A stretch of DNA of 50,118 bases from a virus. Made by a program: the position numbers and the translations under genes. The notes beneath the pieces are model-generated. The model did not search any database. It saw nothing but the letters and a program-made list of their open reading frames with translations, and was not told the origin of the DNA. The stretch spans positions 1 through 50,118 of the IMG/VR virus record IMGVR_UViG_3300007351_000013, one strand, 5' to 3'. Positions 6,403 to 50,118 of the stretch are shown one piece after another. Position 1 is the stretch's first letter. Every line of letters begins with the position of its first letter.

Positions 6403-6809
6403 GGCTTTGCTGCCGCGTGCTTTTCCCACGCACGATCAAGCAGGGCTTTGTCTTCTGGCGTTAAAGGCTCATCGCGTTCGGCCAAGTCCGAATCTTGTGC
6501 ACGTATTTCGGACAACTCGGCCCGAAGCCGCTGATTGTCCTCACGCACGGCCTCCAAGAGATTGCGAAGCTGGATGGTATCCTCAGCACGGCGCGCGTAA
6601 ATCAGTACCTGGTTAGCTAGGGCGCTGTTTGCCGATTCCAGCTTTTGAACCCTGGCGAGAGCTTTTTCGAGCGCATCGCGGGTGCCTTCCAGCATCTCAG
6701 CAAGGCTGTCATTGTTCGGGATAATCATAGGACACCTTTCATGATCGCAGGCAAATCCAAGCACCTGCATGTTTGTCGCACCGCAGTCTGAGCAATAGCG
6801 TCTCATCAT
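6399..6809 (-). CDS. IS passenger: zinc-finger plus coiled-coil protein
   Basis: 136 residues. The N-terminus has CSDCG and CDHERC, a likely small zinc-binding knuckle. It is followed by a long coiled coil (EKALARVQKLESANSALAN through LRAELSEIRAQ) and a C-terminal helix. The start overlaps the transposase stop (A-TGA-TG at 6804-6809). Being inside the inverted repeats it is a passenger of the IS. It could assist transposition or regulate it, but there is no direct evidence for either. Confidence 0.65.
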   Translation of the reverse strand: MMRRYCSDCGATNMQVLGFACDHERCPMIIPNNDSLAEMLEGTRDALEKALARVQKLESANSALANQVLIYARRAEDTIQLRNLLEAVREDNQRLRAELSEIRAQDSDLAERDEPLTPEDKALLDRAWEKHAAAKP

Positions 6810-7723
6810 TGGATCAGTGCCTTGTAGGTCAGGCGCTTGCCCTTCGTGCCGCTCACAAAGCTTTCCAGCCGCTCCATGGTGTGACGCTTCACGTTGCCGT
6901 CATTCAGACGGAAGGCAAATTCGTCAACGTAGCGGCCAAGGTGCTTTTTGCTGGCGTGGTGATAGACGCCAATCAGGCCGCGCTTCATGACCGCGAACAC
7001 GCTTTCAACGCCGTTGGTGGTCACGCTATCGCGGACGTATTCGCCTTCGCTGTGGTTGACAGTTTCGTGGTTGAAGAACAGCCCGCCAAGGCCACGGTAA
7101 ACGCCAGCTTCATCGGTGTGCAGCGTGGAACCGGCGGCGACGTGTTGGTGAATTTTGGTGTGCAGGGTCGCCATGTCGGCATCTTCAACCGCCATGGCTT
7201 TCATCTTGCCGCCGCGCTCGCGCATGGCGACAACGGCAGTCTTGCCGACCGTCCCGCGACCGGCTTTGAGCTTCTTGGACTCGTGCTTGTTCTTTTCGAT
7301 GCCGCCGACATAGGTTTCGTCGATTTCGACGATGCCTTGCAGTTTGGTCAGGTCGTCGCCGCAGGCTTCGCGAAGGCGATGCAGGACGAACCAAGCCGAC
7401 TTTTGCGTAATCCCGATTTCCTTCGCCAATTGCAGGCTGGAAATGCCCTTGCGGGCCGTGACCAGCAGATACATCGCGTAAATCCACTTGTGCAGCGGGA
7501 CATGGCTGCGCTCGAAAATGGTTCCCGTCCGCACCGTAAAATCCTCTTTGCACTGGTTGCAGCGGAAGTAGCCGCCCGCCCGCGCCGTGATCCGCTCGCC
7601 AAGGCCACAGACCGGGCACTTGGGGCCTTCCGGCCACAGACGCCCCTCCAAATAGACCCGCGCCGTCTCTTGATCCGGGAACATCGCGAACAACTCAAAG
7701 GTGGAAATCGTGGACTTACTCAT
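6806..7723 (-). CDS. IS1595-family (ISXO2-like) transposase
   Basis: 305 residues, full length. An N-terminal zinc ribbon (C36-P-V-C39 and C55-N-Q-C58) is followed by an HTH-like stretch (ISSLQLAKEIGITQKSAW) and the DDE-type catalytic core: D135 in EIDETYVGG, D204 in LHTDEAG, and N237/E240 in TTNGVESVFAVMKRG. In the family this domain cuts and joins the IS ends and makes an 8-bp target duplication, as seen here. All catalytic positions are present, so the enzyme is probably active. The gene lies on the same strand as the leftward phage unit. Confidence 0.95.
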   Translation of the reverse strand: MSKSTISTFELFAMFPDQETARVYLEGRLWPEGPKCPVCGLGERITARAGGYFRCNQCKEDFTVRTGTIFERSHVPLHKWIYAMYLLVTARKGISSLQLAKEIGITQKSAWFVLHRLREACGDDLTKLQGIVEIDETYVGGIEKNKHESKKLKAGRGTVGKTAVVAMRERGGKMKAMAVEDADMATLHTKIHQHVAAGSTLHTDEAGVYRGLGGLFFNHETVNHSEGEYVRDSVTTNGVESVFAVMKRGLIGVYHHASKKHLGRYVDEFAFRLNDGNVKRHTMERLESFVSGTKGKRLTYKALIQ

Positions 7724-10521: not shown

Positions 10522-10683
10522 GTGAAGCCCTGCAAGCACAAATACGACCGAAAACTCCTCAGGGAACACGAGTATATGTGGGATAATTTCAGTGATCCAT
10601 CAAAGTACATCCCTGGAATGTTGTATTACAGGCCGTGTCGGCTATGTGGAGACCGGAAGCTGGTCAAGTGGGTTGCTGATTGA
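10522..10683 (+). CDS. Small Cys/His protein upstream of TerL (53 aa)
   Basis: 53 residues from the GTG at 10522. C-x-H-K near the start (KPCKHKY) and C-x-x-C-G near the end (RPCRLCGDRKLVKW) could bind one zinc ion. Its stop overlaps the TerL TTG start (TTGA), so the two are probably translationally coupled. Confidence 0.55.
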   Translation: MKPCKHKYDRKLLREHEYMWDNFSDPSKYIPGMLYYRPCRLCGDRKLVKWVAD

Positions 10684-12107
10684 TTGTTCTCGATTACACC
10701 CCGCAACCAAGACAGAAACTGCTCCATGAAACTCCGGCGACGTTCATACTCTACGGCGGTGCTGCCGGGGGGGCGAAAAGCCACGGACTGCGCTGGGATT
10801 TGTACGGTTGGTGTCTGACAGTTCCAGGTATCGACTGCTTCCTTTTCCGCAAAACACTTCCTGAGCTTGAGGCGAATCACATCCGCAAGATGCGTGCGGA
10901 GATTCCCGGCTCCATTGCCACCTACAACGAGTCCCGCAAGAGACTAGAATTCCTGAACGGTTCCGGTCTGAATATGTGTTTCTGCGAAACCGACGATGAT
11001 GTCGTGAAGTACCAGGGCTCGGAAATGCATGTCTTCGCTTTTGACGAGGCTGCTCTTGCGAAACCCGATCACCTGGCCTTCCTGCTGACCCGTAATCGAC
11101 TCGGGGGATTCCAGGAGCGAATCCCGCCGCAATATCGCCATCTTCTGCCGAGGGCCGTGTTTTCCTCCAACCCCGGAGGCCCGGCGCACAACTTCCTGAA
11201 AGAGAACTTCATCGACCCCGCTCCGGCGGAGACGGTCTTTCTCCATCCCCTGTACAGGCGGAAGACCATCTTCATCCCGTCCTCGATGAAGGACAACAAG
11301 TACCTCGATACCGGGTATGAAAACCAGTTCGTCGGGCTGCCCGAGGAACGGAGAAAAGCTCTCGTCGAGGGAGATTGGGATGCCATTGTCGGACAGGCTC
11401 TTCCGATAGACCGTTCCGTCCACATGATTGGTCCATTCAAACCTCCACCCCATTGGACGAAGTTCATGGCGATGGATTGGGGTACGGCGAGGCCGTTTTC
11501 CGTTGGCTGGTACTGCGTCTCGGAGGGGACCGAGGTCGAGTGGAAGATCGGGAATTGGGGGAAGAGATATCTCCCCGCGGGGTCAGTGATTCGGTATCGG
11601 GAATGGTATGGCTGGAACGGCAAAGCCAACCACGGTTGTCGGATGGAATCCCCGGCAGTAGCGAAGAAGATTCTCGAAATCGAAAACGGGGAAAACATCG
11701 ATTACCGTATTGCTGATGGTGCGATGTGGGCCAAAACAGACGGCCCCTCTCCGGCTGAGAGAATGCTTGAAGCTACAGATGGCAGACTGGCCCTTCGCTC
11801 CACAGGGGCCAAGGACCGCAAGATGATGTACGCCGAATGCATTGCGAGACTCATGGGGCAGGACGGCCATCCGATGTTCTTTGCGACATCTGATTGTAAG
11901 CATTTCTGGAGAACGGTTCCAGTATTGATTACAGACGAAATAGACCCCGACAAAGGGCCGGATACAAAGATGGAGGACCACGTATACGATGAATGGTCCT
12001 ATGCTATGCGTTCTCGTCCCTTCATTCAGACGAAGGACGACAGATGGTATCAAGAGAACTACGAAGATTTGAAAAATCTTAAGCCGATTGATCCGTATGC
12101 AACATAA
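10680..12107 (+). CDS. terL: Terminase large subunit
   Basis: 475 residues, typical length. The ATPase domain has Walker A at residues 26-34 (GGAAGGAKS) and Walker B with the catalytic pair D122-E123 in VFAFDEA. The C-terminal RNase H-like nuclease begins near D266 in MAMDWGTA. The enzyme cuts concatemeric DNA and pumps it into the prohead through the portal. Translation starts at TTG 10680, which overlaps the upstream stop. The portal gene normally follows closely; here about 6 kb of sugar and methyl transfer genes lie between. Confidence 0.95.
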   Translation: MIVLDYTPQPRQKLLHETPATFILYGGAAGGAKSHGLRWDLYGWCLTVPGIDCFLFRKTLPELEANHIRKMRAEIPGSIATYNESRKRLEFLNGSGLNMCFCETDDDVVKYQGSEMHVFAFDEAALAKPDHLAFLLTRNRLGGFQERIPPQYRHLLPRAVFSSNPGGPAHNFLKENFIDPAPAETVFLHPLYRRKTIFIPSSMKDNKYLDTGYENQFVGLPEERRKALVEGDWDAIVGQALPIDRSVHMIGPFKPPPHWTKFMAMDWGTARPFSVGWYCVSEGTEVEWKIGNWGKRYLPAGSVIRYREWYGWNGKANHGCRMESPAVAKKILEIENGENIDYRIADGAMWAKTDGPSPAERMLEATDGRLALRSTGAKDRKMMYAECIARLMGQDGHPMFFATSDCKHFWRTVPVLITDEIDPDKGPDTKMEDHVYDEWSYAMRSRPFIQTKDDRWYQENYEDLKNLKPIDPYAT

Positions 12108-12849
12108 TCCTACCGTCTATATTACCGAACATATCAATTCCAAGGTAGTTGGTTCGGCCTTTGCGGAAGGCTGCGGGGGCCGGATAGCCTCACCCGTTCG
12201 GCTTCTTGATGGGCCGGCAGTCGTATATGGAATCCTTAGAGGATGCGGCGACATCATACGCCAAGCCGAGTGGGTGGGGCGGGATTTCTTCCATATTGAC
12301 CTCGGGTATTTCAAACGGGGTCACTATGAGGGTTACTACAGAGTTACGCAGAACGCCTTCCAAGCCGATCTTGACGATGTTCTCGTAAGACCAGACAGGT
12401 GGGAAACCCTAAAAATCCCCCTTCGTCCATGGAAAAGGACGGGACGGAACGTAGTCGTATGTCCGATGACGGGAGCCGTGGGCGATTTTCTCAACATCAA
12501 TACGAGAAAATGGATCGAAACCGTTACCGACGAATTGAGGAAGTATACCGAACGCCCAATAATCGTGAAGCCTAAGGGCGATGTCGATATATCCGAGATG
12601 TTTGAGGACGCGTGGTGTGTTGTCACACACTCATCGAATGCTGCCGTGGATGCGGTTTTAGCCGGAGTCCCCGTCGTGACCCTGGGGGATTCGGCCTGCG
12701 AACAGATTTCTTGGGGTTTAAGTGATATCGAATCTCCATTCTGGCCTGAACGGGACTGGTGGTGCCATAAACTCGCCTATCATCAGTTTACTCTTGATGA
12801 ATTCCGTAACGGCGTGGCATGGAAAATCCTTCAGGAACACGATGTTTGA
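12097..12849 (+). CDS. GT-B-like glycosyltransferase (capsule-synthesis type)
   Basis: 250 residues from ATG 12097; a TTG at 12088 is an alternative. The segment VVTHSSNAAVDAVLAGVPVV followed by TLGDSACEQIS is the nucleotide-sugar-binding motif seen in GT-B and KpsS/KpsC-like capsule transferases. PIIVKPKGD earlier fits the second Rossmann domain. The protein is short for a two-domain GT-B enzyme, so the N-terminal domain may be reduced. It opens the cassette between TerL and portal and overlaps both neighbours. The acceptor is unknown. Confidence 0.65.
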   Translation: MQHNPTVYITEHINSKVVGSAFAEGCGGRIASPVRLLDGPAVVYGILRGCGDIIRQAEWVGRDFFHIDLGYFKRGHYEGYYRVTQNAFQADLDDVLVRPDRWETLKIPLRPWKRTGRNVVVCPMTGAVGDFLNINTRKWIETVTDELRKYTERPIIVKPKGDVDISEMFEDAWCVVTHSSNAAVDAVLAGVPVVTLGDSACEQISWGLSDIESPFWPERDWWCHKLAYHQFTLDEFRNGVAWKILQEHDV

Positions 12850-13441
12850 AGTCATCACCATCGAAGGAATCCAGTATCCGAATCACTCTGATGCTCAGAG
12901 ATGGTATGACCAGCTTCAATATCTGAAAATCGGCCTTTCATACGTCAAGAATTTCGACCTCGCCATTGATGGTGGAGCGTTTGTCGGGGCATGGACGCGG
13001 GAAATGGCGAAAAGATTCAAGAAGGTTGTTGCTTTCGAGCCCGACCCGCAGAATTTCGAGCTTCTGAAGCGAAATACGAAGGAATTCGATAACGTTTTTC
13101 TTCACAACGCCGCTTTGGGCGACCAGAACACGAAAATCGGCCTTGACGGCAAGGTTCCGTGTTCAAGATACATCATTCCGGAGGGCGAAATCCAAATGCT
13201 AAGACTGGATTCGCTCAATCTTGCCCCAACATTCGTGAAATTCGACCTTGAGGGCACTGAAATCTTCGCTCTCCGTGGAGCAGAACAGACCCTGAAGGCA
13301 TATAAGCCAGTTGTTCAGATGGAATACAAGGACAGGGTGTGGGATCGATACAATTCCGGTGATCCGGAAAGGCTTTTGAAATCATGGGGCTGGAAATTCC
13401 AGGAAAAGGCCCACGTTGACCGTATCTACACATGGACCTGA
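12842..13441 (+). CDS. FkbM-family methyltransferase
   Basis: 199 residues from ATG 12842. The SAM-binding motif I is AIDGGAFVGAWT (from residue 41), followed by VAFEPDPQNFELLKRN (acidic loop, E66), an NAALGD strand and the FkbM-type VKFDLEGTEIFALRGA. FkbM enzymes O-methylate hydroxyls, often on sugars or polyketides. Its start overlaps the end of the glycosyltransferase gene, so sugar O-methylation is the natural reading. The substrate is not known. Confidence 0.85.
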   Translation: MFEVITIEGIQYPNHSDAQRWYDQLQYLKIGLSYVKNFDLAIDGGAFVGAWTREMAKRFKKVVAFEPDPQNFELLKRNTKEFDNVFLHNAALGDQNTKIGLDGKVPCSRYIIPEGEIQMLRLDSLNLAPTFVKFDLEGTEIFALRGAEQTLKAYKPVVQMEYKDRVWDRYNSGDPERLLKSWGWKFQEKAHVDRIYTWT

Positions 13442-13941
13442 TCGAACAGTACCGGATGATGCATGAAGCCGGGAAGTTTCCCGGTTTTTCCTGTCTCCCT
13501 CATCTGAATGAGATCGGTCTTGCGATCATGCGATCGAGATCGAAGACGCTTCTGGACTATGGCTCAGGTGACGGGCAGCAGTACTCTCTTGCCAAGCTCG
13601 ACAAACGCTGGGGTGTTGAGGTCACCTGTTACGATCCAGCGGTGAAGAAATTCGAGACGAAACCATTTCGGAAATTCGATTTCGTTCTCTGCTGTGACGT
13701 TCTTGAACACATTCCGGAAGAGGGCATTGGCCCGGTTCTCGGGGATGTCTTCTGGCACGCCGGGAAATATGTCTTTTTGACCATATCGACCAGGGAAGCG
13801 AGGAAAACGCTTCCCGATGGAAGAAACTGCCATTTGACGGTGAAGCCGATTGAATGGTGGCTACAGCAGATCGGCCCAAGACAGGTGCCCTACGATGTCG
13901 TTTTCGATGAAAAGAATTCTATGTCTTCTCGGGCTTCATGA
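13432..13941 (+). CDS. Class I SAM-dependent methyltransferase
   Basis: 169 residues. Motif I is LLDYGSGDGQQY (from residue 40), then CYDPAV, and the post-motif DFVLCCDVLEHIPEE typical of the Methyltransf_11/23 group. It is shorter than most and lacks an obvious substrate-binding domain. It overlaps the FkbM gene by 10 bases and the next small gene by about 35. It probably methylates a small molecule or glycan in the same pathway. Confidence 0.78.
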   Translation: MDLIEQYRMMHEAGKFPGFSCLPHLNEIGLAIMRSRSKTLLDYGSGDGQQYSLAKLDKRWGVEVTCYDPAVKKFETKPFRKFDFVLCCDVLEHIPEEGIGPVLGDVFWHAGKYVFLTISTREARKTLPDGRNCHLTVKPIEWWLQQIGPRQVPYDVVFDEKNSMSSRAS

Positions 13942-14056
13942 CGACCAGGTTACGTGGTTCGGCCGGAGAAAGGTCGGACAAAACGAATACGTCCTCTCGG
14001 TTCATGTCTGCCGTGTGTGCGGAAGAAGAAAGAATGTAACGAATGATCACCGATAA
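13907..14056 (+). CDS. Small CxxC protein
   Basis: 49 residues from ATG 13907 (MKRILCLLGLHDDQV), or 53 from ATG 13895. It has the layout of a phage mini zinc-ribbon: an L-C-x-L-G-x-H motif at the start and CRVCGRRK near the end. It overlaps the genes on both sides in other frames. Function unknown. Confidence 0.6.
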   Translation: MKRILCLLGLHDDQVTWFGRRKVGQNEYVLSVHVCRVCGRRKNVTNDHR

Positions 14057-14987
14057 GATTGACAACATCACCAGTATCGGCCCGGAATTCCGGGCTTCTT
14101 TTTTGCCCGCCCCGAAAAGCGTCAAGATCGAACTGACGGGACGCTGTAACTACCGATGTGGATTCTGCGCTCTTCGCACCCGTACCGTACAGCCGAAATC
14201 AGACATGGATTGGGATTTGTACACCCGTCTGGTTCTGGAAATGCGACAGGCGGATGTCGAGGAACTCGGGATGTTCTATCTCGGCGAATCCTTTCTTTTC
14301 GATTGGCTCCCAGAGGCAATCCGGTTCGCCAAGTCGGCGGGATTCCCATATGTCTTCCTGACCACGAACGGTTCCTGTGCGACCCCGGAAATGGTCGAAG
14401 CCTGCATGGCCGCCGGGCTGGACTCCCTGAAATTCTCAATGAACAACGCCGATGAAGCACAATTCACGAAAGTCGCCGGGGTGAAGGCGAAACTGTGGGC
14501 CGATGCGATAGCAAATCTTCATGCAGCCCGTAAAATACGCGATCAGGGCCCATACGATTGCGGGTTATACGCTTCTTCGATCCGGTACGACGGCGAACAG
14601 CAGGAGAAAATGGAGGCGTTCCTTGAACGGGACGTAATCCCTTATGTGGATGAGCATTACTGGCTACCCCTTTATTCTATGGGCTCTCTGGCTGCACGGC
14701 GTGAGAAAGAGCTTGGATACCGTCCGATTGCCGGAAACCAGGGGAGACTCGGCAATCTCAGGGAGCCGCTGCCGTGCTGGTCCGCCTTTACCGAGGGACA
14801 TATCACTGCCTCGGGAAAACTCAGCGCGTGTTGTTTCGATGCCGACGAACGTTGGGCGATGGCTGATCTCACGGAAGTTGGGTTCATGGACGGATGGAAT
14901 TCCGAATCCTTCCAACGATTACGGGCCGCTCACTTGAAAAAGGATGTCTTCGGAACGCCGTGTGAGGAATGCGTCGCATATGCCTGA
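14043..14987 (+). CDS. Radical SAM/SPASM-domain enzyme
   Basis: 314 residues. C35-x3-C39-x2-C42 (GRCNYRCGFC) binds the 4Fe-4S cluster that cleaves SAM. YLGESFL and LTTNGS are TIM-barrel strands. The C-terminal Cys set (C245, C263-C264, C307, C310) fits a SPASM/Twitch region holding extra iron-sulfur clusters. SPASM enzymes modify peptides, proteins and some small molecules. In this cassette it may modify a sugar or a virion protein. The substrate cannot be read from sequence. Confidence 0.88.
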   Translation: MITDKIDNITSIGPEFRASFLPAPKSVKIELTGRCNYRCGFCALRTRTVQPKSDMDWDLYTRLVLEMRQADVEELGMFYLGESFLFDWLPEAIRFAKSAGFPYVFLTTNGSCATPEMVEACMAAGLDSLKFSMNNADEAQFTKVAGVKAKLWADAIANLHAARKIRDQGPYDCGLYASSIRYDGEQQEKMEAFLERDVIPYVDEHYWLPLYSMGSLAARREKELGYRPIAGNQGRLGNLREPLPCWSAFTEGHITASGKLSACCFDADERWAMADLTEVGFMDGWNSESFQRLRAAHLKKDVFGTPCEECVAYA

Positions 14988-15162
14988 TTGGGGGCGCATC
15001 GAAAATCAATACGGCGTTGATTTCGTGGCCTATCTGAAGAGTATTGGTTATCCGGATGATCCTGTAACCAAAGAACTGTCCGAGAATGACGGATATCCAG
15101 GAATTGAAATAATCCACAGTGCGTGGAAGGCATGGAATGAAGGATTTCGTTGCTATGCCTAG
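14980..15162 (+). CDS. Small hypothetical protein in the cassette (60 aa)
   Basis: 60 residues from ATG 14980, overlapping the radical SAM stop. Acidic and aromatic (WGRIENQYGVDFVAYLKSIG, then HSAWKAWNEG). No family was recognised. It may be an accessory or substrate peptide for the upstream radical SAM enzyme. That is speculation based only on position. Confidence 0.5.
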   Translation: MPDWGRIENQYGVDFVAYLKSIGYPDDPVTKELSENDGYPGIEIIHSAWKAWNEGFRCYA

Positions 15163-15343
15163 CGAACAAGCAATAACCGGGATGATTTTATTGTTATGCC
15201 TTTATCTCCCGCTTCTAATCTGGCTCGCTTTCGTAATCATAAAAGATAATGGGCTCATATGTCGTCTGATTGATCATAAGACGGTGTATTTCTGTTCTGG
15301 TTGGGTTCGATGCGACAGATGTTTTAAATGGTTTAATCAATGA
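15137..15343 (+). CDS. Small membrane protein with CxxC (68 aa)
   Basis: One strong hydrophobic segment (GMILLLCLYLPLLIWLAFVI) is followed by a short tail with the paired-Cys pattern C-S-G-W-V-R-C-D-R-C. The start was chosen at ATG 15137, downstream of a longer frame. It is the only clear membrane protein of the cassette and could hold the glycosyltransferases at the membrane. That role is inferred. Confidence 0.5.
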   Translation: MKDFVAMPSEQAITGMILLLCLYLPLLIWLAFVIIKDNGLICRLIDHKTVYFCSGWVRCDRCFKWFNQ

Positions 15344-16047
15344 AAGTCTTTGTTGGCTATGACGCCCGCGAACCGGAAGCTTACAAGGTCTGCGTTCGCT
15401 CGCTCCTGAAACATTCATCTATTGATCTTGATATTATACCACTTCTGGACGCCGACCTAAGGGCGAAGAATTTATACCGGCGACAATACAAGCAACTCGC
15501 CGTGGGCCCGAGATATGATTTTCTTGATGGCAAGCCGTTTTCTACGGATTTTGCGTTCACCCGTTTCCTTGTTCCATCCCTGTGCGATTTTGGACCGGCG
15601 GTTTTCTGCGATGCGGATTTCCTGTGGCGCGGCGATATCAATAGCCTCTTGGATCATTTCGACAATTCCAAGGCTGTGCTGGTTGTCCAACACGACCACA
15701 AGCCGGACGAATCCGAGAAGATGGATCACATGATCCAGGAATCGTACCCGAGAAAGAACTGGTCAAGCCTGATCCTGTGGAACTGCTCGCACTATGCTTG
15801 CCGGGCATTGACGCCAGAGTATGTGAATACAAAACCAGGCTCGGACCTTCATGGGTTCAAATGGGTTGACGACGATCATATCGGGTCGCTCCCCGTTGAG
15901 TGGAATTATCTTGTCGGCTGGAACACGAAGGAACAATGCGAACATCCTTCCGCCGTTCATTTCACGAACGGTATCCCGACGATGCCGGGTTGGTGGAATC
16001 AGGAATATGCCTCGGAATGGCTGAGCACATTGAGAGAAATCCAGTGA
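15340..16047 (+). CDS. GT-A glycosyltransferase (GT8-like)
   Basis: 235 residues. The N-terminus MKVFVGYDARE starts a Rossmann-like sheet. The metal and nucleotide-sugar DXD motif is D91-A-D93 in VFCDADFLW, and RKNWSSLILWNC with WNYLVGWN are conserved in phage GT8-like enzymes. It would transfer a hexose-type sugar from a nucleotide donor. It overlaps both neighbours (ATGA and GTGA). Confidence 0.8.
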   Translation: MKVFVGYDAREPEAYKVCVRSLLKHSSIDLDIIPLLDADLRAKNLYRRQYKQLAVGPRYDFLDGKPFSTDFAFTRFLVPSLCDFGPAVFCDADFLWRGDINSLLDHFDNSKAVLVVQHDHKPDESEKMDHMIQESYPRKNWSSLILWNCSHYACRALTPEYVNTKPGSDLHGFKWVDDDHIGSLPVEWNYLVGWNTKEQCEHPSAVHFTNGIPTMPGWWNQEYASEWLSTLREIQ

Positions 16048-16772
16048 GACGCTGCATAACCAGTTTCTCACAAGCAGGATACGCAGAATATGGCAAGAGA
16101 TTTCTCCAGTCCTATGTGGGGCACTGGCCTATTCCAATTACGGTATTCTATGAGCACAAGAAGCCGGATTTCGAGCATGAAAAAGTCTCCTATATCGACT
16201 TGATGGCTGATGAAGACCTGATCTTCTTTCTCATAGATCATGAATGGGAATCCGCAGCGAACGGAATTCAATGGGACGATTCCGGTAAACCCTTTGCTAA
16301 CTATCGCTATCAGGCGTGCAAGTTCGCCAGAAAAATCTACGCGCTTACATCTCCGCGCATGGAAGATTCCGATTGGCTGATCTGGCTGGACGCCGATATC
16401 GAAACCCACAAGGACATCGACGACAGATTCTTTGCAGAAACCTGCAAGAAAGAATTCGTCGCCTCTTATCTCGGGCGGGCGGATTGGCACCATTCCGAAT
16501 GTGGGTTCGTCGCCTACAATATAAACAAGCGTGGCGACGATTTCCTGGCCCGCATGAGGGATATCTACAATTCCGGGGAACTGTTCGATCTGGACGAATG
16601 GCATGATTCGTTCGTTTTCGATCATGTCAGGAAGAAATGCGAGGAAAGCGGATTGAAATTCCTCAACCTGTCCGCCGGGGTGCCGGGGAATCATGTCTGG
16701 CCGAATACGATCCTCGGCGAATACATGAGTCATAACAAAGGCCCAGAACTGAAGGAACGAGCCTATAAATGA
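16044..16772 (+). CDS. Second GT-A-like glycosyltransferase
   Basis: 242 residues from GTG 16044, overlapping the previous stop (GTGA). D116-A-D118 in WLIWLDADIET is a clear DXD motif. FANYRYQACKFARKIYAL before it and EWHDSFVFDHVRK after it follow the pattern of phage and bacterial glycosyltransferases of unassigned family. With the 15340 gene it forms an adjacent pair, suggesting sequential sugar additions. Confidence 0.72.
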   Translation: MRRCITSFSQAGYAEYGKRFLQSYVGHWPIPITVFYEHKKPDFEHEKVSYIDLMADEDLIFFLIDHEWESAANGIQWDDSGKPFANYRYQACKFARKIYALTSPRMEDSDWLIWLDADIETHKDIDDRFFAETCKKEFVASYLGRADWHHSECGFVAYNINKRGDDFLARMRDIYNSGELFDLDEWHDSFVFDHVRKKCEESGLKFLNLSAGVPGNHVWPNTILGEYMSHNKGPELKERAYK

Positions 16773-18160
16773 GCCGTTATATCCAACTTCATGCATTGAT
16801 CGACCATCACAAGCCGCAGACGTTCGTTGAGATCGGTACTTGGAACGGGATGCGAGCACTTGAGCTTTCCAAGTCCCTTCTCAAGCACCATCAACAGGTC
16901 ATGTATTATGGGTTCGACCTGTTCGAAGACGCTACGGAAGAAACCGATAAGGCAGAGTTGAACGTCAAGGCCCATTCCAGCTTGGAAGCGGTAACTGATC
17001 TGCTGTCCCAAGTAGGGCCGGGATTCAAATTCACCCTGATCAAAGGTAATACCCGCGAGACGCTTCCGAAATGGAAGTCGCAGCTTTCGCAGGCTGACAT
17101 GGTGTTCATCGACGGCGGGCACTCAGTCGAAACCATCGCGTCGGACTATGAGAATGTGAGGGGGGCGAAGGTCGTCATTTTCGACGACTATTATGTCCCT
17201 GATGACAAGGGGAGATGTCAGGACACGGAAAAACACGGCTGCAACAAGCTCCTTGAAAACGTACCTCATACGATCCTGTCCGCGAAAGACCCGGTGAAGG
17301 GGGGCGGATTGGTGCAAATGGCCGTCAGTCCTCCGGAGGCGGCAAAGATACAGCTACAGCGGAACGTAGAGGTCAAGACCAAGAACTGCGTCCCGCATCC
17401 GGAGATACAGGCAAACATCCGATATTCGGTCGGATTGAAACCACCGTTGATGCCGAAGATGCCGGCCCACAAACACCTTGCCTTGATGTGCTCGGGCGGC
17501 CCTTCGCTGGAATGGTATCTCTACGAACTGGCGGAAAAACAGAAGGCCGGCGGGAAACTCGTATGTGTCAAGCACGCCCACGATCTTCTGCTGAAAAACA
17601 ACATCGTGCCGGATTTCTGCATCCTTCTCGACCCGAGGGGACATGTGCAGGACTTCATTGATAACCCGCATCCCGAGGTTCATTACCTCGTGGCGTCGAT
17701 GTGCCATCCGTCCACGTTCGACAAGCTGATCGAGAAAAAGGCGAAGCTGTGGACGTATCATGCTGCAGTAGGCGCCGATGAACAAAATCTGCTCAAGGAA
17801 ATCGGTGGACAGGGGCTTCTTATCGGTGGCGGGTCTTCCTCTTGCACAAGAGGGATTTCCGTCATGTGGTCCATCGGATTCCGCAGATTCGAATTGTTTG
17901 GGTATGATTCGTCGTATGTCGAACCGCCAAATTTGTGGAATATGGAACCGGAAGAGCGCAACAAGTTTTGCAAGATCGCCATCAATGGGCGGGAATTTTA
18001 TACGGACTTCGAGAAGCTCGCGGAAGTCCAGGATTACGAAAAACTCAGGAAACACGACATGGGCGGGGATTTCACCGTCCACGGCGGCGGTATGATCCCC
18101 CATGTCGAAAGGATTTTGACACAGAATGTCAATGATACCTTCAGACGCATCTTCGGCTGA
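16769..18160 (+). CDS. Methyltransferase-DUF115 (Maf/MptE-like) fusion
   Basis: 463 residues in two parts. Residues 1-200 are a Methyltransf_24-type SAM domain (FVEIGTWNG at 19-27, MVFIDGGHSVE, IFDDYY). Residues about 230-460 match DUF115 of the Maf/MptE group (LMCSGGPSLEWYL, IVPDFCILLDPRGH, GLLIGGGSSSC, FELFGYDSS). Bacterial Maf proteins attach nonulosonic acids to flagellin; archaeal relatives are pyrophosphokinases. The fusion is unusual. It ends the cassette, and the portal start overlaps its 3' end by 35 bases. Confidence 0.78.
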   Translation: MSRYIQLHALIDHHKPQTFVEIGTWNGMRALELSKSLLKHHQQVMYYGFDLFEDATEETDKAELNVKAHSSLEAVTDLLSQVGPGFKFTLIKGNTRETLPKWKSQLSQADMVFIDGGHSVETIASDYENVRGAKVVIFDDYYVPDDKGRCQDTEKHGCNKLLENVPHTILSAKDPVKGGGLVQMAVSPPEAAKIQLQRNVEVKTKNCVPHPEIQANIRYSVGLKPPLMPKMPAHKHLALMCSGGPSLEWYLYELAEKQKAGGKLVCVKHAHDLLLKNNIVPDFCILLDPRGHVQDFIDNPHPEVHYLVASMCHPSTFDKLIEKKAKLWTYHAAVGADEQNLLKEIGGQGLLIGGGSSSCTRGISVMWSIGFRRFELFGYDSSYVEPPNLWNMEPEERNKFCKIAINGREFYTDFEKLAEVQDYEKLRKHDMGGDFTVHGGGMIPHVERILTQNVNDTFRRIFG

Positions 18161-20117
18161 GCTTGCGAACCTCGCCCAGAGTCTGCCCGAAGATGAACTG
18201 AAGAAAATTGCCGATCAGTGCATCCGTGAATTCGATGACGACGACGCAACCCGGAAGCCGTGGTTGCAGATGCACGCCGAGTGGATGAAGCTCTTTTATC
18301 AGGACGATAAGCCGAAAAATCCCCCGTGGCAGGGCGCTTCCAGTGAATCTCTACCCTTGCTTGCCGAGGCTTGTGTCCAGTTTCAGGCCCGCGCTTATCG
18401 CAACCTGTTCCCGAACGAACACGTCATCAAGGCGATGCCGGAGGGAGAGGTTACGAATGACAAAAAAGAACGCGCCAACAGGGTCGGGAAACACATAAGC
18501 TGGCAGCTTATGGTCCGCGACAAGCGGTACAAGTCCGACAAGGACGCCCTCCTGCTTTCCGTTCCCCTACATGGATCGTTTTTCACGAAGACCTATTACG
18601 ATCCGTTTTTGGGGAGAAATCGTACCGATAACGTCAGGGCAGAGGATTTGGTTGTCCCCTACGGGGTCGGGCCGAGGGAACTGGAGGATATCGAACGTAA
18701 AACGCACATCATTTGGATGTCCGTCAACCAGACCCGGTCATTGAAAGCATCTGGATATTTTATTGAGGAAGGGAAACCCTATACGCTCGGTCAGAAAACG
18801 GAAACCCAGAAAGCAACCGAGAAACAGGAAGGATTGCAGGAATCCATCCTCCAGCAAGAACACCTGCCCTGCAAAATTCTTGAACAGCACCGCCTTCTCG
18901 ACTTGGATGGGGACGGTCTGGCGGAGCCCTATATCGTAACGCTCGATTACGCCTCAAGGAAGATACTGAGAATCGCGATCCGGTATGAAACGGACGAAAT
19001 GGGGAATCCTATCGGGGACAAGCGACCGATTGAATTCTTCGTCCATTATCCATTTATGCCGAATCCGGATGGGTTCTACGGGCTGGGATATGGGCATCTG
19101 CTTGGTAACATAAATATTGCCCTCAACAAGATGCTTCGTCAGACGGTTGATGCGGCCACGCTCGCGAATGTTGGGAATCATTCAGGATTCGTGAACCAGG
19201 CTGTCGGGGCCGGCAAGGGCGATATCGAATTCCATCTCGGGAAGTTCAAGACCATCCGGGGGACATCGGAAGACCTTTCCCGCTCGATATATCAGTTCAA
19301 ATTCCCTGGTCCTAATGCTGCGCTGATCGAATTGATAGCCCTTCTGGACGGGAAGGGCCGTGGGCTGGCGTCAGTGCCAGAAGCCCTGACCGGACAGATG
19401 GACAAGGTTGTCCAGCCCACGACTGTTCTTGCTCTTATCGAGCAGGGTTTGCAGGTTTTCTCGACGGTCTATGAGCGGATCATCGAATCGTGGAAGCGCG
19501 AACTTGCCATTCACTATCGTTTGAACCGGAAGTACATGCCGAATTCGGAGTACTTCACGATCCAGGATATGGCGCAGGGACTCCAGAATCTGGCCATCGG
19601 AAAAGACGACTACAAGGATGACTTCCTCGTTACGCCTATCGTCGATCCGAAGATGGCGACCGAACAGCAGAGGCTTGCTAAGGCACAGGCCGAATGGCAG
19701 TTCGTTTCTACGAATCCCATTATCATGCAGAATCCAATTGCATTGTACCGGGCGTCGAAGCGTTATCTTGAAGCCATCGGCTCGACGGACATAGATGAGA
19801 TTCTTCCCCCGATGGTCGCTGACACGCCGCCGAGGGTGGACGATCAGGGGATAGAGAACATGGGGGCGCTCCAACCGATTCCCATGATGTCCGATGTCTA
19901 TATGGACCAGAACCACCTTGAGCATATCAAGAAGATCGACGAATTCCTGCAATCCCCGTATGCCGCACAGATCACGCCAATGGGCCTTCAGATTCTCATG
20001 GGGCATCGGCAGAAGCACGCCGCGTTCCTGTACGGCATGACGGAAACAAATCTGCCTTCCGTCATTGACGATAAGGCTCCGACTATCCCAAGTGCCCAGA
20101 TGGCTCCGCTCCAATGA
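18126..20117 (+). CDS. Portal protein (P22-like podovirus type)
   Basis: 663 residues. PWQGASSESLPLLAEACVQF with FQARAYRNLFP near the N-terminus, the middle KPIEFF/HYPFMPNPDGFYG-type region and LTGQMDKVVQPTTVLALIEQ towards the C-terminus are typical of the large portals of short-tailed phages. Twelve copies form the ring at one capsid vertex through which DNA passes. It starts within the end of the DUF115 gene and its stop overlaps the next start. Confidence 0.85.
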   Translation: MSMIPSDASSAELANLAQSLPEDELKKIADQCIREFDDDDATRKPWLQMHAEWMKLFYQDDKPKNPPWQGASSESLPLLAEACVQFQARAYRNLFPNEHVIKAMPEGEVTNDKKERANRVGKHISWQLMVRDKRYKSDKDALLLSVPLHGSFFTKTYYDPFLGRNRTDNVRAEDLVVPYGVGPRELEDIERKTHIIWMSVNQTRSLKASGYFIEEGKPYTLGQKTETQKATEKQEGLQESILQQEHLPCKILEQHRLLDLDGDGLAEPYIVTLDYASRKILRIAIRYETDEMGNPIGDKRPIEFFVHYPFMPNPDGFYGLGYGHLLGNINIALNKMLRQTVDAATLANVGNHSGFVNQAVGAGKGDIEFHLGKFKTIRGTSEDLSRSIYQFKFPGPNAALIELIALLDGKGRGLASVPEALTGQMDKVVQPTTVLALIEQGLQVFSTVYERIIESWKRELAIHYRLNRKYMPNSEYFTIQDMAQGLQNLAIGKDDYKDDFLVTPIVDPKMATEQQRLAKAQAEWQFVSTNPIIMQNPIALYRASKRYLEAIGSTDIDEILPPMVADTPPRVDDQGIENMGALQPIPMMSDVYMDQNHLEHIKKIDEFLQSPYAAQITPMGLQILMGHRQKHAAFLYGMTETNLPSVIDDKAPTIPSAQMAPLQ

Positions 20118-21447: not shown

Positions 21448-21735
21448 ATGGCAATCGACCCTCTATTTGCGCGCGTACTCCTTCAGCGGGAAAAGCTGAA
21501 GACTTCTATTATCATTCCGGACATAGCGGCGAAGCGAAACGCCCCCTGTATCGGGACGGTCCTGAAGACCGGAGATACCTGTGAAGACAGGATCAAGGGA
21601 CTTGTTGGAAAGAAAGTCCTTTTCGGCCAGCACGCCGGGACATGGATCAATGAGGACGGAACGGCCGTCGCCGATCCGCTGAAGGCCGAATTTTTCATGT
21701 GCATGGAAGAAGACCTACTTGGAGTCATCGAATGA
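21448..21735 (+). CDS. GroES-like co-chaperonin
   Basis: 95 residues, the normal Cpn10 length. DPLFARVLLQREKLKT aligns with the GroES start D-R-V-L-V-x-R-x-E, SIIIPDIAAKRNAPCIGTV resembles the mobile-loop strand region, GKKVLFGQHAGTW resembles V-L-F-x-x-Y-A-G-T, and the C-terminus EEDLLGVIE matches E-D-D-I-L-A-V-I. Phage T4 gp31 is a precedent: it replaces GroES for capsid folding. The place directly before scaffold and capsid supports the same role. The mobile loop looks divergent. Confidence 0.78.
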   Translation: MAIDPLFARVLLQREKLKTSIIIPDIAAKRNAPCIGTVLKTGDTCEDRIKGLVGKKVLFGQHAGTWINEDGTAVADPLKAEFFMCMEEDLLGVIE

Positions 21736-23528: not shown

Positions 23529-24419
23529 ATGACTGTATCCACTGGCAATTTTGCCGAACTGCTCTGGCCCGGCATCAAGGACCTGTTCGGTCAGGCTTAC
23601 GAGCGTTGGGAGACGAAGTACACGCAGTTCTGCGACATCATGGAATCGGACAAGGCGTTCGAGAAGCTCCAGGGTGTCACCGGCCTGCCGCTGGCTTCGA
23701 TCAAGACCCAGGGCAACCAGATTCCGTTTGTCGATCCCATGCAGGGGTTGCAGAAGGAATTCGTGAACGTCACCTACGCCATCGGTTCCGGTGTTACCCG
23801 CGAAATGTACGAGGACGATCAGTACAACTACATCAACTCGATCCCCTCGATGATCGCGGAGAGCGTCCGGCAGACCGAAGAGACTGTGGCGACGAATGTG
23901 CTGAACAACGGCTTTTCCACCGCTACGGCGGCGGATGGCCTCAGCGTGTTCAACGCAAGCCATGTTCTTGTCGCAGGCGGGACGTATCGCAATCAGCCTT
24001 CGACGGCCGCCGATCTCACGCAGACCTCGCTTGAGCAGGCGTTCATCGACATCTCGGACTACACCGACGACCAAGGCCTGAAGATCAACATCATGCCCAA
24101 GGTTCTCATCGTTCCGACCGCGTTGCAGTTCGTCGCGGAGAAAATCCTCAATACTGAGTATGAGGTCGATACCGCGAACAATACGGTCAATCCGATGAAG
24201 GGCCGGTTGCCGCTCGTTGTCACCCCGTTCCTGACCGATACCGACGCATGGTTCATCAAGACCTCGTCCCGCAACGGGATGGTCTTCTTCAACCGGCGCT
24301 CGGCCGATCTGGAGCGCGACAACGACTTCAACACCCAGAACCTCTTGTTCGCCGGCACCCGCCGTTTCTCGGTTGGCGTCGCCGACGCGCATGGTCTTTA
24401 CGGTTCGCAGGGCGCGTAA
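23529..24419 (+). CDS. Major capsid protein (HK97 fold, Mu gpT-like)
   Basis: 296 residues. FAELLWPGIKDLFGQAYER at the N-terminus, PKVLIVPTALQFVAEKIL and LPLVVTPFLTDTDAWFI in the middle and TQNLLFAGTRRFSVGVAD near the end follow the Mu-like head subunit gpT pattern. There is no long N-terminal delta domain, in keeping with a separate scaffold gene. GGAGG precedes the ATG. A strong terminator follows, as often found after the most highly expressed virion gene. Confidence 0.88.
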   Translation: MTVSTGNFAELLWPGIKDLFGQAYERWETKYTQFCDIMESDKAFEKLQGVTGLPLASIKTQGNQIPFVDPMQGLQKEFVNVTYAIGSGVTREMYEDDQYNYINSIPSMIAESVRQTEETVATNVLNNGFSTATAADGLSVFNASHVLVAGGTYRNQPSTAADLTQTSLEQAFIDISDYTDDQGLKINIMPKVLIVPTALQFVAEKILNTEYEVDTANNTVNPMKGRLPLVVTPFLTDTDAWFIKTSSRNGMVFFNRRSADLERDNDFNTQNLLFAGTRRFSVGVADAHGLYGSQGA

Positions 24420-24515: not shown

Positions 24516-24962
24516 ATGACCACTTTCCGTGGCCCGCTCTACGTGCGGGCAAAGGCAGATAACGGTATCCCCGCGCAGAGCGACAAGGGCACCGTCATTC
24601 TCGAACAGATGGTGTCGCTGGCCGCAGATACCTCGGGGGCATCCTCGATTGTCCTGCCGGCGAATTCCCGCATCGTGGATATGAATGTCGTCGTCATCAC
24701 CCCGGCGACGCTCAATACCCAGGGCATTCTTGTCCGCGTCGGTACCACGAGCGATGCGATCAAGTTCGCCAACATCAAGACATCGGCCTCAAATATCTAT
24801 CGCTGCGGTTACGCCCCTAACCTCACGGCCGGTTCCGTGGCGGCATGGCACAACATCGGGACGGGCTCTCAGCGGCTTTATATCGATGTAACCGCCGCCG
24901 CCTCGGCTGCCGAAACCGCCGAATTCACCGGCCTGCTCTCCATCCAGTACGTATTGAGGTAA
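24516..24962 (+). CDS. Beta-rich structural protein (148 aa)
   Basis: 148 residues, strand-rich, Thr/Ala/Val-rich, with IVLPANSRIVDMNVVVITP in the middle. Preceded by AAGGAG. Similar proteins follow capsid genes in many podoviruses and are virion proteins of unknown role. It is the first gene after the terminator. Confidence 0.6.
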   Translation: MTTFRGPLYVRAKADNGIPAQSDKGTVILEQMVSLAADTSGASSIVLPANSRIVDMNVVVITPATLNTQGILVRVGTTSDAIKFANIKTSASNIYRCGYAPNLTAGSVAAWHNIGTGSQRLYIDVTAAASAAETAEFTGLLSIQYVLR

Positions 24963-24965
24963 GTC

Positions 24966-25298
24966 ATGGCCCGCACTACGACAGTCAGTGCGAAGGGCAG
25001 CGCCGGAACTCAATCTGCCTGGATTCCGCTTGACCAGCATATCTCCCCGTTCAACGTGGGATTTGGCGTTGTCAAGTCGGGAACCGGGGACATCACCTAT
25101 TCGGTCCAGCATACCTTCAACGACGTGCTGGCCGGAGAAACGGCGACGGCCTTCGATCACTCTTCCGTTTCCGGGGCTACGGGCTCCGTGGACGGAAACT
25201 ACGCCTATCCGGTCAAGGCCGTCCGCCTCAACATCACGGCGGCTTCCGGGGCGTCGTCCCTTCAGTTCTACGTGATCCAGGCCGGGATCACGCAATGA
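24966..25298 (+). CDS. Beta-rich structural protein (110 aa)
   Basis: 110 residues, strand-rich (ISPFNVGFGVVKSG, then TYSVQHTFNDV and VKAVRLNITAASG). It resembles the small head or tail proteins of this region. It overlaps the next gene by ATGA. Confidence 0.6.
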   Translation: MARTTTVSAKGSAGTQSAWIPLDQHISPFNVGFGVVKSGTGDITYSVQHTFNDVLAGETATAFDHSSVSGATGSVDGNYAYPVKAVRLNITAASGASSLQFYVIQAGITQ

Positions 25299-41278: not shown

Positions 41279-41352
41279 TGGCATAGGCGGCCGGGCTCGA
41301 ACCGGCATCTGCGGTTTTGGAGACCGCTGCTCTACCATTGAGCTACGCCCAC
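41279..41352 (-). tRNA. trnW: tRNA-Trp (CCA)
   Basis: 74 bases with encoded 3' CCA. Acceptor stem GTGGGCG / CGCCTAT (one G-T pair inside and one at the end), T8-A9, D stem GCTC/GAGC, anticodon stem GCGGT/ACCGC with loop CTCCAAA (anticodon CCA), a short 4-base variable loop, and T stem GCCGG/CCGGC with loop TTCGAGC. It converges on the lipase gene. The 41332 gene overlaps its first 21 bases. Confidence 0.93.
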
Positions 41353-44429: not shown

Positions 44430-44932
44430 TTCGGCATCCCTTCCTTCGCTGAGGCTTCTGCCTTCGCCGAGGCTTCGGCGGCCGGCTTCGGCGCGCGCTC
44501 GGCATCTTCGGCCCGAAAGATCACGGCATGGTCGGCCGGCAGCCACGACCGGAGCGCGGCAACCGCTTCATCGATGTTTGGATGCCGCTGCGACATCCCG
44601 CCATCGGCGGATCGTTGTGAGAACACCAGCTTGAAATAGTCCCGGGTGTGGGTGCTGATCTCGAACCGGATGCGCGCCTCGTGGCAGAGCAGGACGAGCT
44701 TGGTCAGGCCGTCGAAGTCGAACGTCGACAGCCGGTTCGACCGCGCGACGATCTCGACCGCCCGCCCGCCGAGGAACGGCCGCCAGTGCCGCTTGAACGC
44801 GATCGGCGCGTTGTAGATGCCGCCGTAGCTGAGGCCGATGATCTCGGCGACCTTCGCCTCGGTCCGTGACAATGGCCGGTCGAGCATCTCGCGCAGCCAG
44901 TACGCATGATCGTATTTGACGTACTGGGTCAC
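44426..44932 (-). CDS. Hypothetical protein with Ala/Glu/Lys repeat tail (168 aa)
   Basis: 168 residues. The N-terminal half (DRPLSRTEAKVAEIIGLSYG, then LTKLVLLCHEARIRFEIST) is folded in appearance; the tail is a low-complexity repeat of A-E-A-S-A-K units (PAAEASAKAEASAKEG). No known family. It overlaps the DUF5131 gene. Confidence 0.6.
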   Translation of the reverse strand: MTQYVKYDHAYWLREMLDRPLSRTEAKVAEIIGLSYGGIYNAPIAFKRHWRPFLGGRAVEIVARSNRLSTFDFDGLTKLVLLCHEARIRFEISTHTRDYFKLVFSQRSADGGMSQRHPNIDEAVAALRSWLPADHAVIFRAEDAERAPKPAAEASAKAEASAKEGMPK

Positions 44933-45936
44933 TTAGGCACCTCGTTCCATTCGCGGCCGTCGAGCAGGCGGCCGGCGCGGGATTTGCCGACGCGGGCCAT
45001 GCAGAAATCGCCGCGCATCCGGCAGCGCGCGACATGAATCGCGGGCGTTACCGAGCCGTCATCATCATCGGTGACAAAGCCAATCCCGTCGGTGCGCGCG
45101 GGTGCATAGCTACCCCACTGCTTGAAGAAGTAGGGAATGCCGTGCGCGGCACAGAAGTCGCGCGCGGCGCGGTGCCAGTCGGGATGCGAGGGCCGCGCCT
45201 TCGGCCCCGATTCGCCGCCCGAGATCAGCCAGCGCAGGAATTCCCAGCCGCGCCAGTCGATCGGACCAAGCGCCGGTTCGTAGGAGACGAAGGTGTTCCA
45301 GCCGGCTGCGGCGAGGGCGGCAAGATCGTCGCGGCGCCGGTCGGCCCACTCCTGGTTCTCGACGCTGACGCCGAGCCAGACGTTCGGCAGGGGCCAGACG
45401 CCGAGGCGGATGCGGCGGCCAGGCGGCGCGTGTGGTTCATGTTCCGGATCGGCGATCAGCACCAAGGTAATATCGCGGGCATCTGTCAGCGCCAGATCGC
45501 AGACCTGATCGTAGACCCGCTGCGCCACGCCGGGGTCGGTCATGTACGCCCGCATCCGCTCCGGCCGCTTGGTGAGGATTTGGAAGGTGTGCTGCGGCGC
45601 CAGCGCCATCACCGCGAGGTGCCGGTCGATCCAGTCGTCGGGGACCCAGTCGCCGAACAGGTCGGTCATCGAGTTCCAGAAGATGCGGCGCGGTTTGCGC
45701 CAGCGCAGAGGCATCAGCAGCGCGGCTTCGTCGAGGAACATACCGACCTTGGAGGCATCCTGCGCGGCGAAGCGCACCGGGTTGCCGAAGCGGGTCTGGA
45801 ACCGCTCGCTGTAGCAATTGGCGCAGCCGGGCGAGACGTGGATGCAGAAGTGCCCGGTCTTGCTGGCCTTACGGTTGCGCGCCCGAATCGGGTTCACCGA
45901 CGAATCGGTCCATTCGATCTTGCTGTTCTCAGCCAA
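44929..45936 (-). CDS. Gp37/Gp68 (DUF5131) family protein
   Basis: 335 residues from TTG 45936, preceded by GGAGG. KIEWTDSSVNPIRARNRKA, then CIHVSPGCANCYSERF, PLRWRKPRRIFWNSMTDLFG, TFQILTKRPERM and NVWLGVSVENQEWADRR, and GGESGPKARP are the conserved blocks of the phage Gp37/Gp68 family. The fold is TIM-barrel-like with a Cys cluster, distantly related to radical SAM proteins. The role is unknown in most phages. Confidence 0.9.
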   Translation of the reverse strand: MAENSKIEWTDSSVNPIRARNRKASKTGHFCIHVSPGCANCYSERFQTRFGNPVRFAAQDASKVGMFLDEAALLMPLRWRKPRRIFWNSMTDLFGDWVPDDWIDRHLAVMALAPQHTFQILTKRPERMRAYMTDPGVAQRVYDQVCDLALTDARDITLVLIADPEHEPHAPPGRRIRLGVWPLPNVWLGVSVENQEWADRRRDDLAALAAAGWNTFVSYEPALGPIDWRGWEFLRWLISGGESGPKARPSHPDWHRAARDFCAAHGIPYFFKQWGSYAPARTDGIGFVTDDDDGSVTPAIHVARCRMRGDFCMARVGKSRAGRLLDGREWNEVPK

Positions 45937-46051
45937 TCCACCCTCCTTCAGTCGGCCGGCAAGCCGCCCGCCTTTCGCCGGCCATCATGCGTTCAGCCGC
46001 TGCGCTGTTTTCCGTGTGCATCGGGAATGCGGCTGGCGGGGACGAATTCAT
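45929..46051 (-). CDS. Small linker peptide (40 aa)
   Basis: From ATG 46051, overlapping the exonuclease stop by ATGA and the DUF5131 start. Ala/Pro/Arg-rich (NSSPPAAFPMHTENSAAAE). It carries the GGAGG used by the next gene. Coding confidence is modest. Confidence 0.4.
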   Translation of the reverse strand: MNSSPPAAFPMHTENSAAAERMMAGERRAACRPTEGGWIG

Positions 46052-49905: not shown

Positions 49906-50118
49906 TCAGGATTCCGTTTTGGCAATGGCGGCGTCTATGACGGCCAAATCCGGCGCCGTCAATCGTTTGTCAGGCGTGGTGAAGGTCATTGTCCCATCCA
50001 CGGCAGCAACGTACCCTCGCGCGATTGTCAGTGCCTCGCGCAACATCGTCACCTGTTCGCGCAGACGGGCATTCTCATCGGCCAAAGTGCGCCCGACCTT
50101 GATCGCCAAATCCGTTCG
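49906..50118 (-). CDS. Join-spanning small gene, 3' part
   Basis: The frame continues from the ATG at 93-91 at the left edge; the last 84 bases (50035-50118) duplicate 1-84. Residues include ADENARLREQVTMLREAL (coiled coil) and TTPDKRLTAPDLAVIDAA. In the unit genome the gene is 73 codons plus stop. No family. Confidence 0.75.
   Translation of the reverse strand, partial: RTDLAIKVGRTLADENARLREQVTMLREALTIARGYVAAVDGTMTFTTPDKRLTAPDLAVIDAAIAKTES
50035..50118. repeat. Terminal direct repeat, right copy
   Basis: Identical to 1-84 over all 84 bases. See the left copy for interpretation. Confidence 0.95.

Follow-up and report, generated by a model that had tools for sequence, protein, structure and literature searches.

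The window analysed in the present study, a stretch of 50,118 nucleotides, was a phage genome, circular and complete at about 50.0 kb. Between the genes for the terminase large subunit (TerL) and the portal, we found seven enzymes and three small open reading frames (ORFs), labelled A to J.

10680..12107, + strand: TerL, left cassette boundary; PHROG terminase large subunit match (E 9e-28)
12097..12849, + strand: A, GT-B-type glycosyltransferase with a KpsC/WbbB-like predicted fold and weak Pfam matches
12842..13441, + strand: B, FkbM-family methyltransferase, optional part; PF05050 and TIGR01444
13432..13941, + strand: C, class I SAM methyltransferase, optional part; PF13489 above cut-off, phrog_24759 (1e-22)
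13907..14056, + strand: D, small CxxC protein with no assigned function; phrog_15735 (E 2.5e-4)
14043..14987, + strand: E, radical SAM/SPASM enzyme, optional part; PF04055 and PF13186 above cut-offs
14980..15162, + strand: F, small ORF, called from the reading frame alone; no family match in Pfam or PHROG
about 15155..15343, + strand: G, small ORF with one transmembrane segment predicted by hydropathy
15340..16047, + strand: H, GT8-like GT-A glycosyltransferase, core part; phrog_28018 (7e-64)
16017..16772, + strand: I, GT-A-fold glycosyltransferase, core part; predicted structure and DXD motif
16769..18160, + strand: J, Methyltransf_24 domain followed by a DUF115/MptE-like (Maf-type) domain, both above cut-off
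18126..20117, + strand: portal, right cassette boundary; tblastn matches to named portal/head-to-tail connector proteins (best E 7e-76)

A first-pass annotation had placed glycan-type genes between a TerL end at 12107 and a portal start at 18126, and both the coordinates and the families were borne out. Its title counted six enzymes, which was wrong, but its own list named seven, all of which were found. It had also described overlapping starts and stops throughout; with the likely start codons, every junction from TerL to portal indeed overlapped, by 4 to 35 bp.

The AlphaFold model of A had a pLDDT of 93.5, and its best fold matches in Foldseek and VIA were Kdo transferases, with a Z of 12.6 to KpsC over 222 residues. 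The top 27 Foldseek matches were all KpsC, WbbB or KrkA, which indicated a modified GT-B fold. Retaining β-Kdo transferases such as these (GT107/GT99/GT140) are defined by a QxxxD nucleophile and an HP CMP-binding motif, both located C-terminally in the second domain (PMC12887879). By inspection of a 28-sequence alignment, neither motif was conserved in A, so A shares the fold but was ruled out as a true Kdo transferase. B belonged to the FkbM family, scoring 40.6 bits for PF05050 (cut-off 22.7) and 66.2 for TIGR01444 (cut-off 37.7; E 4e-18). The Pfam GT8 score of H was below the cut-off (21.3 versus 24.3 bits), and H is described here as GT8-like without assignment to that family; its DXD motif (D91/D93) and H207 were invariant in the alignment. 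The model of I (pLDDT 94.9) matched BoGT6a (Z 15.2), PBCV-1 A64R (14.8) and glycogenin (14.6), and its DXD motif (D125/D127) was invariant. A64R is a capsid-glycan glycosyltransferase, but it ties with the other two matches, shares 8% identity with I and comes from a eukaryotic virus, and a common GT-A fold proves no common function. In many relatives, I and the DUF115 domain formed a single fused protein.

E carried an invariant CX3CX2C motif and invariant SPASM cysteines, which placed it among the radical SAM/SPASM enzymes; it presumably modifies a sugar or a peptide. It was absent from all 44 relatives with both flanking genes. A homologue with 53% identity occupied the same cassette slot in another relative (L194), and 66 viral relatives of E were found, 41 of them with gene H nearby; E is thus not unique to this phage.

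In J, PF01973 (Maf_flag10/DUF115) was detected at 7.5e-16 and PF13578 (Methyltransf_24) at 2.3e-12. The nearest solved structure to the DUF115 domain by sequence was the Maf protein 5mu5, a weak match (E 0.006). The PseD family model matched at 1.6e-6, but the score of 27 bits, for a cut-off of 670, does not amount to a full-length match. Maf proteins bear a FliS/flagellin-like C-terminal domain (PMC11339370); J, at 463 aa compared with 666 aa in 5mu5, ended shortly past DUF115 and lacked it. The substrate of Maf is flagellin still in the cytoplasm, before its export (PMC4065374), and Maf is not strict about its donor (PMC11339370). From its domain matches, we propose J as a candidate protein-linking glycosyltransferase. 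Like the Maf/PseD flagellin glycosyltransferases (PF01973), which place a nonulosonic acid on protein Ser/Thr residues, J has a Rossmann-type domain before DUF115, and as proposed it would likewise be soluble, cytoplasmic and independent of a lipid carrier. It differs from them in that it lies in a phage, beside a portal and without flagellin, in that its N-terminal domain scores as a methyltransferase, and in that partner glycosyltransferases and methyltransferases accompany it in one overlapping gene run.

Relatives in IMG/VR were reached first via gene H and then via the portal; single-protein IMG/VR scans with portal and J patterns, which were too specific, returned no matches. Among the 44 relatives with both flanking genes, 42 held 3.5-6.7 kb in the slot. 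The order was A-(C)-H-(B)-I-DUF115-portal, where brackets denote optional genes; A was present in 41, B in 20, C in 26 and H in 42. The cassette is therefore a core (A, H, I and DUF115) with optional parts (B, C and E). A search for DUF115 was made independently of the portal, and 25 of its contigs lay outside the portal search; the portal was the next conserved gene after all 80 DUF115 ORFs, within 400 bp in 77. The core order was retained down to about 40% portal identity, and cassette divergence tracked that of the portal, with Spearman coefficients of 0.58 (DUF115) and 0.60 (A) compared with 0.46 (TerL). In pairs close enough to compute, dN/dS was 0.04-0.37, indicating purifying selection. 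Two changes were needed on the portal phylogeny, which we interpret as a single gain and a single loss. Outside the cassettes, about 480 kb searched as a control contained none of the cassette families. In some relatives the slot also held sugar-nucleotide-type genes (epimerase/dehydratase, cytidylyltransferase, phosphomannomutase-like and GT9-like).

The ordered set that the first-pass annotation had proposed to seek in viral genomes thus exists as a core, in the same slot, in dozens of uncultured relatives. Its statement that no described system has this exact set needed recasting, since the set is a recurring core with optional parts; it still agreed with the literature searched, whose coverage was incomplete and in which no glycosylation cassette between TerL and portal turned up. 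Named phages related by portal had no cassette: TerL and portal either adjoined each other or were split by, for example, a PcfJ-like protein or a tRNA. Judged on named phages only, the cassette would have looked like a private insert. Clusters of the same families were also seen elsewhere among phages: homologues of A, H, I and FkbM/methyltransferases stand side by side in Pelagibacter phage Mosig, Caulobacter Ccr phages and pelagimyophages. Those clusters differ in lying beside tail or replication genes, and J had no match in named phages. One genome-collection scan pointed to no clear host; its sole match was a distant portal, carried by a gammaproteobacterial MAG. The MAG is of the Gram-negative type and has LpxC; J was absent from MAG relatives.

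Two small genes behind the capsid gene were candidate acceptors of a glycan.

23529-24419: major capsid protein, directly preceding the 148-aa protein
24516..24962, + strand: 148-aa post-capsid protein, candidate glycan acceptor, directly 3' of the major capsid protein
24966..25298, + strand: 110-aa post-capsid protein, candidate glycan acceptor, Ser/Thr-rich (23% S+T), with the same presence pattern

Cassette carriers had the 148-aa protein or another ORF after the capsid gene, filling at least 640 bp. One cassette-less lineage (L131/L134) was also without the post-capsid genes present in carriers, with no ORF in its 60-bp post-capsid gap; this joint loss is one evolutionary event seen in partial contigs. 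The cassette-less outgroup L007 has the 148-aa protein, which rules that protein out as a strict cassette partner.

Starting from what was observed (the gene families and their order, the folds predicted for A and I, conservation and purifying selection), we infer the catalytic steps, donor, acceptor and benefit as follows. The Maf-type DUF115 domain of J would draw on the nucleotide sugars of the host and link a sugar to Ser/Thr residues in a virion protein. The glycan would be lengthened by A, H and I and capped by the methyltransferases, namely B, C and J through its N-terminal half, and E might optionally alter a sugar or side chain. The acceptor would be a head protein, perhaps one of the two small proteins encoded just past the major capsid protein, and the benefit could be shielding, stability or adsorption. 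On balance, and with modest confidence, we favour this reading of the cassette as a phage-encoded pathway that O-glycosylates a virion protein in the cytoplasm, tied to head assembly. The shared core in one slot suggests that related viruses glycosylate a particle protein during assembly. The first-pass annotation had the cassette building a methylated glycan for the virion or the host surface. A glycan-building and methylating gene set was indeed kept together beside virion genes over deep divergence, and of the two targets the evidence leans towards a virion protein, given the proximity of DUF115 to Maf/PseD, the lack of genes for membrane carriers and the place of DUF115 immediately ahead of the portal. 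Against this reading stand the weak Maf match, the PseD score far below cut-off, the missing FliS-like domain, the single loss event in L131/L134 and the 148-aa protein of L007.

The main rival, which we consider rather unlikely, is that the target lies on the host: the enzymes would remodel a glycan of the cell surface (LPS, O-antigen or capsule), blocking superinfection or keeping progeny off debris. The GT8-like H, the fold of A shared with the capsule and O-antigen Kdo transferases KpsC and WbbB, and the Gram-negative MAG with LpxC are consistent with such a role. Similar pelagimyophage sets, with glycosyltransferases near tail fibres, have been interpreted as host O-chain modifiers (PMC7029224), which also counts against the virion-protein reading. 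However, no flippase, polymerase, ligase or other multi-pass membrane protein was found in the cassettes of the window or its relatives, including the relatives' unassigned cassette ORFs. No integrase or repressor domain was detected among 48 further window ORFs, which makes lysogenic conversion unlikely. The locus accordingly differs from the Gtr serotype-conversion cassette of temperate phages, with its membrane flippase and membrane glycosyltransferase. The constant location of the cassette, flanked by TerL and portal and with DUF115 adjoining the latter, and the proximity of DUF115 to protein glycosyltransferases also argue against host-surface remodelling.

It is improbable that the cassette is a loose moron island of unrelated carbohydrate genes without joint action. 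The optional parts do vary among relatives, and the adjacency of TerL and portal in several named relatives means that the slot can be empty or otherwise filled, as a permissive site would be. Nevertheless, the core order kept to about 40% portal identity, the purifying selection, the I-DUF115 fusion and the joint presence of these families in further phages argue against such an island. Decoration of phage DNA with hypermodified bases, evading restriction, appears very improbable. Phage glycosyltransferases can serve DNA hypermodification, according to work cited in PMC12619734, and the cassette adjoins a packaging gene. Among the 48 further window ORFs, with small ORFs covered in part, Pfam revealed no thymidylate synthase, hydroxymethylase or TET-like oxygenase. 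The DUF115 and FkbM families are not known to modify DNA. The weakest proposal, that E is a viperin-like antiviral or nucleotide enzyme outside glycan synthesis, draws on local matches to pVip models (E 2e-11) and viperin structures, but we reject it as barely credible because the match spans the generic radical-SAM core only, viperins not being known to have a SPASM domain and relatives of E often lying near H.

The usual view of phage particles is one of bare protein, with few known cases of virion glycosylation. In mycobacteriophages, glycans were reported on capsid and tail subunits (Freeman et al. 2023, as relayed in PMC12619734). Compared with that account, the present cassette occurs in an unrelated phage lineage, with a proposed Maf-type linker and several methyltransferases. 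More broadly, and only tentatively, virion-protein glycosylation of this kind may be a lineage-wide, lipid-carrier-free O-glycosylation with a Maf-type linker beside the portal and a capsid decoration protein as its target. Assembly would then be coupled to glycan attachment, and the glycan type would be swapped via optional modules (methyltransferases, radical SAM and sugar-nucleotide enzymes). Across deep divergence, an uncultured phage lineage has retained this glycosylation-type gene set in one place, flanked by TerL and portal. Why phages would glycosylate themselves can now be tested directly, using the candidate linker J, the few candidate acceptors and the relatives that naturally lack the cassette. 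These results also indicated that FkbM, GT8 and radical SAM genes called 'auxiliary metabolic' in viromes can belong to one recurring system.

The first 84 bases of the window recurred at its end (direct repeat, 1-84 and 50035-50118), and the window is thus a complete circular-mapping phage genome of ~50.0 kb. It was contig 24 in a 5.4-Mb bacterial MAG (host or bin-mate), which was of Gram-negative type because it encoded LpxC. The first-pass annotation had placed a six-enzyme cassette between TerL and the portal. Both boundaries were exact and the cassette was confirmed, but the gap was filled by seven enzymes, together with three small ORFs. The genes, A to J, were as follows, with the curated family cut-offs passed by B, C, E and J:

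10680-12107, TerL (left boundary)
12097-12849, A, GT-B-like glycosyltransferase
B, FkbM (over the curated cut-off)
C, class I methyltransferase (over the curated cut-off)
14043-14987, E, radical SAM plus SPASM (over the curated cut-offs)
D, F and G, small ORFs
H, GT8-like
I, GT-A fold
16769-18160, J, Methyltransf_24 plus DUF115/MptE-like (over the curated cut-offs)
18126-20117, portal (right boundary)

Judged by likely start codons, each cassette gene overlapped its downstream neighbour, suggesting a single run with translational coupling.

The remaining enzymes were identified from profiles and structural models. H scored slightly below the Pfam cut-off for GT8, matched phrog_28018 at 7e-64 and had an invariant DXD and histidine. 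I had no family match; its AlphaFold model (pLDDT 94.9) predicted a GT-A enzyme, with Z scores of 15.2 to BoGT6a, 14.8 to PBCV-1 A64R and 14.6 to glycogenin, and its DXD was invariant. Sequence matches of A were weak throughout, and its model (pLDDT 93.5) matched Kdo transferases (KpsC, WbbB and KrkA; Z 12.6 to 8.8). Kdo-transferase chemistry is defined by QxxxD and HP motifs, neither of which was conserved in A, so the donor of A is not assignable from this likeness. For the DUF115 part of J, the closest structure was Maf 5mu5 (E 0.006), and a PseD flagellin-modification model was also close (1.6e-6, partial match).

The cassette had been proposed to build a methylated glycan for the virion or the host surface. 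This was partly supported and could be made more specific: on balance, the cassette probably represents a cytoplasmic pathway that glycosylates a virion protein. Maf enzymes that link sugar to flagellin do so in the cytoplasm, before export (PMC4065374), and accept several CMP-sugars, including Kdo (PMC11339370). Remodelling of the host surface, the main rival, appeared less likely, because the DUF115 domain resembled these cytoplasmic enzymes, no multi-pass membrane protein lay alongside the cassette, and no integrase was found in 48 further ORFs of the window; the last point also makes lysogenic conversion unlikely.

The cassette was absent from the named-record phages nearest by portal (27-34% identity), in which TerL adjoined the portal or other genes lay between (for example a PcfJ-like protein or a tRNA). 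Among IMG/VR relatives (39-55% portal identity), 44 loci had both flanks; the cassette genes recovered there were H (42 loci), DUF115 (42), A (41), I (38), C (26) and B (20). The order was mostly A-C-H-B-I-DUF115-portal. I and DUF115 were fused in many relatives; some relatives encoded the methyltransferase half of J as a separate gene, the first after TerL. A DUF115-only search added 25 contigs to those of the portal search. The portal was the next conserved gene for 80/80 DUF115 ORFs with room downstream (within 400 bp in 77), with a profile built mostly from portal-adjacent members, which distant DUF115 proteins elsewhere would escape. Cassette-family HMMs gave zero matches in ~480 kb outside cassettes.

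In the portal tree, all carriers formed one group (SH-aLRT 100), with two state changes: the cassette was gained once and was lost once, in the sister loci L131/L134, whose TerL and portal genes abutted (~20 bp). Cassette-gene divergence followed portal divergence about as well as TerL divergence did, and dN/dS was 0.04-0.37 in close pairs. Carriers with the region resolved had at least 640 bp of genes downstream of the major capsid protein; in the window these encode 148-aa and 110-aa proteins (24516-25298), and other relatives had variants. L131/L134 had 60 bp there and neither gene. Their joint absence with the cassette is a lead only, because it reflects one evolutionary event in partial contigs and a cassette-less outgroup encodes the 148-aa protein. 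A small gene downstream of the portal (21448-21735), conserved across the lineage, occupied the position of an annotated GroES co-chaperonin in named relatives.

Variable slots in relatives held sugar-nucleotide and glycan enzymes: an NAD-dependent epimerase/dehydratase, a cytidylyltransferase, a phosphomannomutase-like enzyme, a GT9-like protein and additional methyltransferases. E was absent from all 44 loci with both flanks, and a homologue (53% identity) occupied the same slot in the contig L194. A phage radical SAM/SPASM family with 47-70% identity to E was found in 66 viral contigs (L247-L312); genes nearby were H (41 contigs), C (25), I (18), A (11), B (9) and DUF115 (7), and the named phage collection gave only 4 matches, all weak.

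As the first-pass annotation had suggested looking for, the same families clustered in unrelated phages: differing subsets of A, H, I and FkbM were grouped in the genomes of Pelagibacter phage Mosig, Caulobacter Ccr phages and a Manatee Spring podovirus. In the podovirus (L178:2165-7998), homologues of A and I, a methyltransferase and a PLP-dependent enzyme lay directly upstream of TerL. Virion glycosylation and Maf enzymes are each already known; the literature searched contained no description of a phage lineage that keeps a Maf-type cassette in a set position between TerL and portal.

Elsewhere in the window, we observed an IS1595-type transposase with a zinc ribbon (6809-7723, minus strand) within the phage genome; insertion sequences are unusual in phages. 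One tRNA-Trp (cca) gene lay at 41279-41352 (minus strand). A DUF5131 protein (44932-45936, minus strand; E 2e-75) was encoded next to a YqaJ exonuclease (46051-46782) and an ERF annealing protein (46782-47534).
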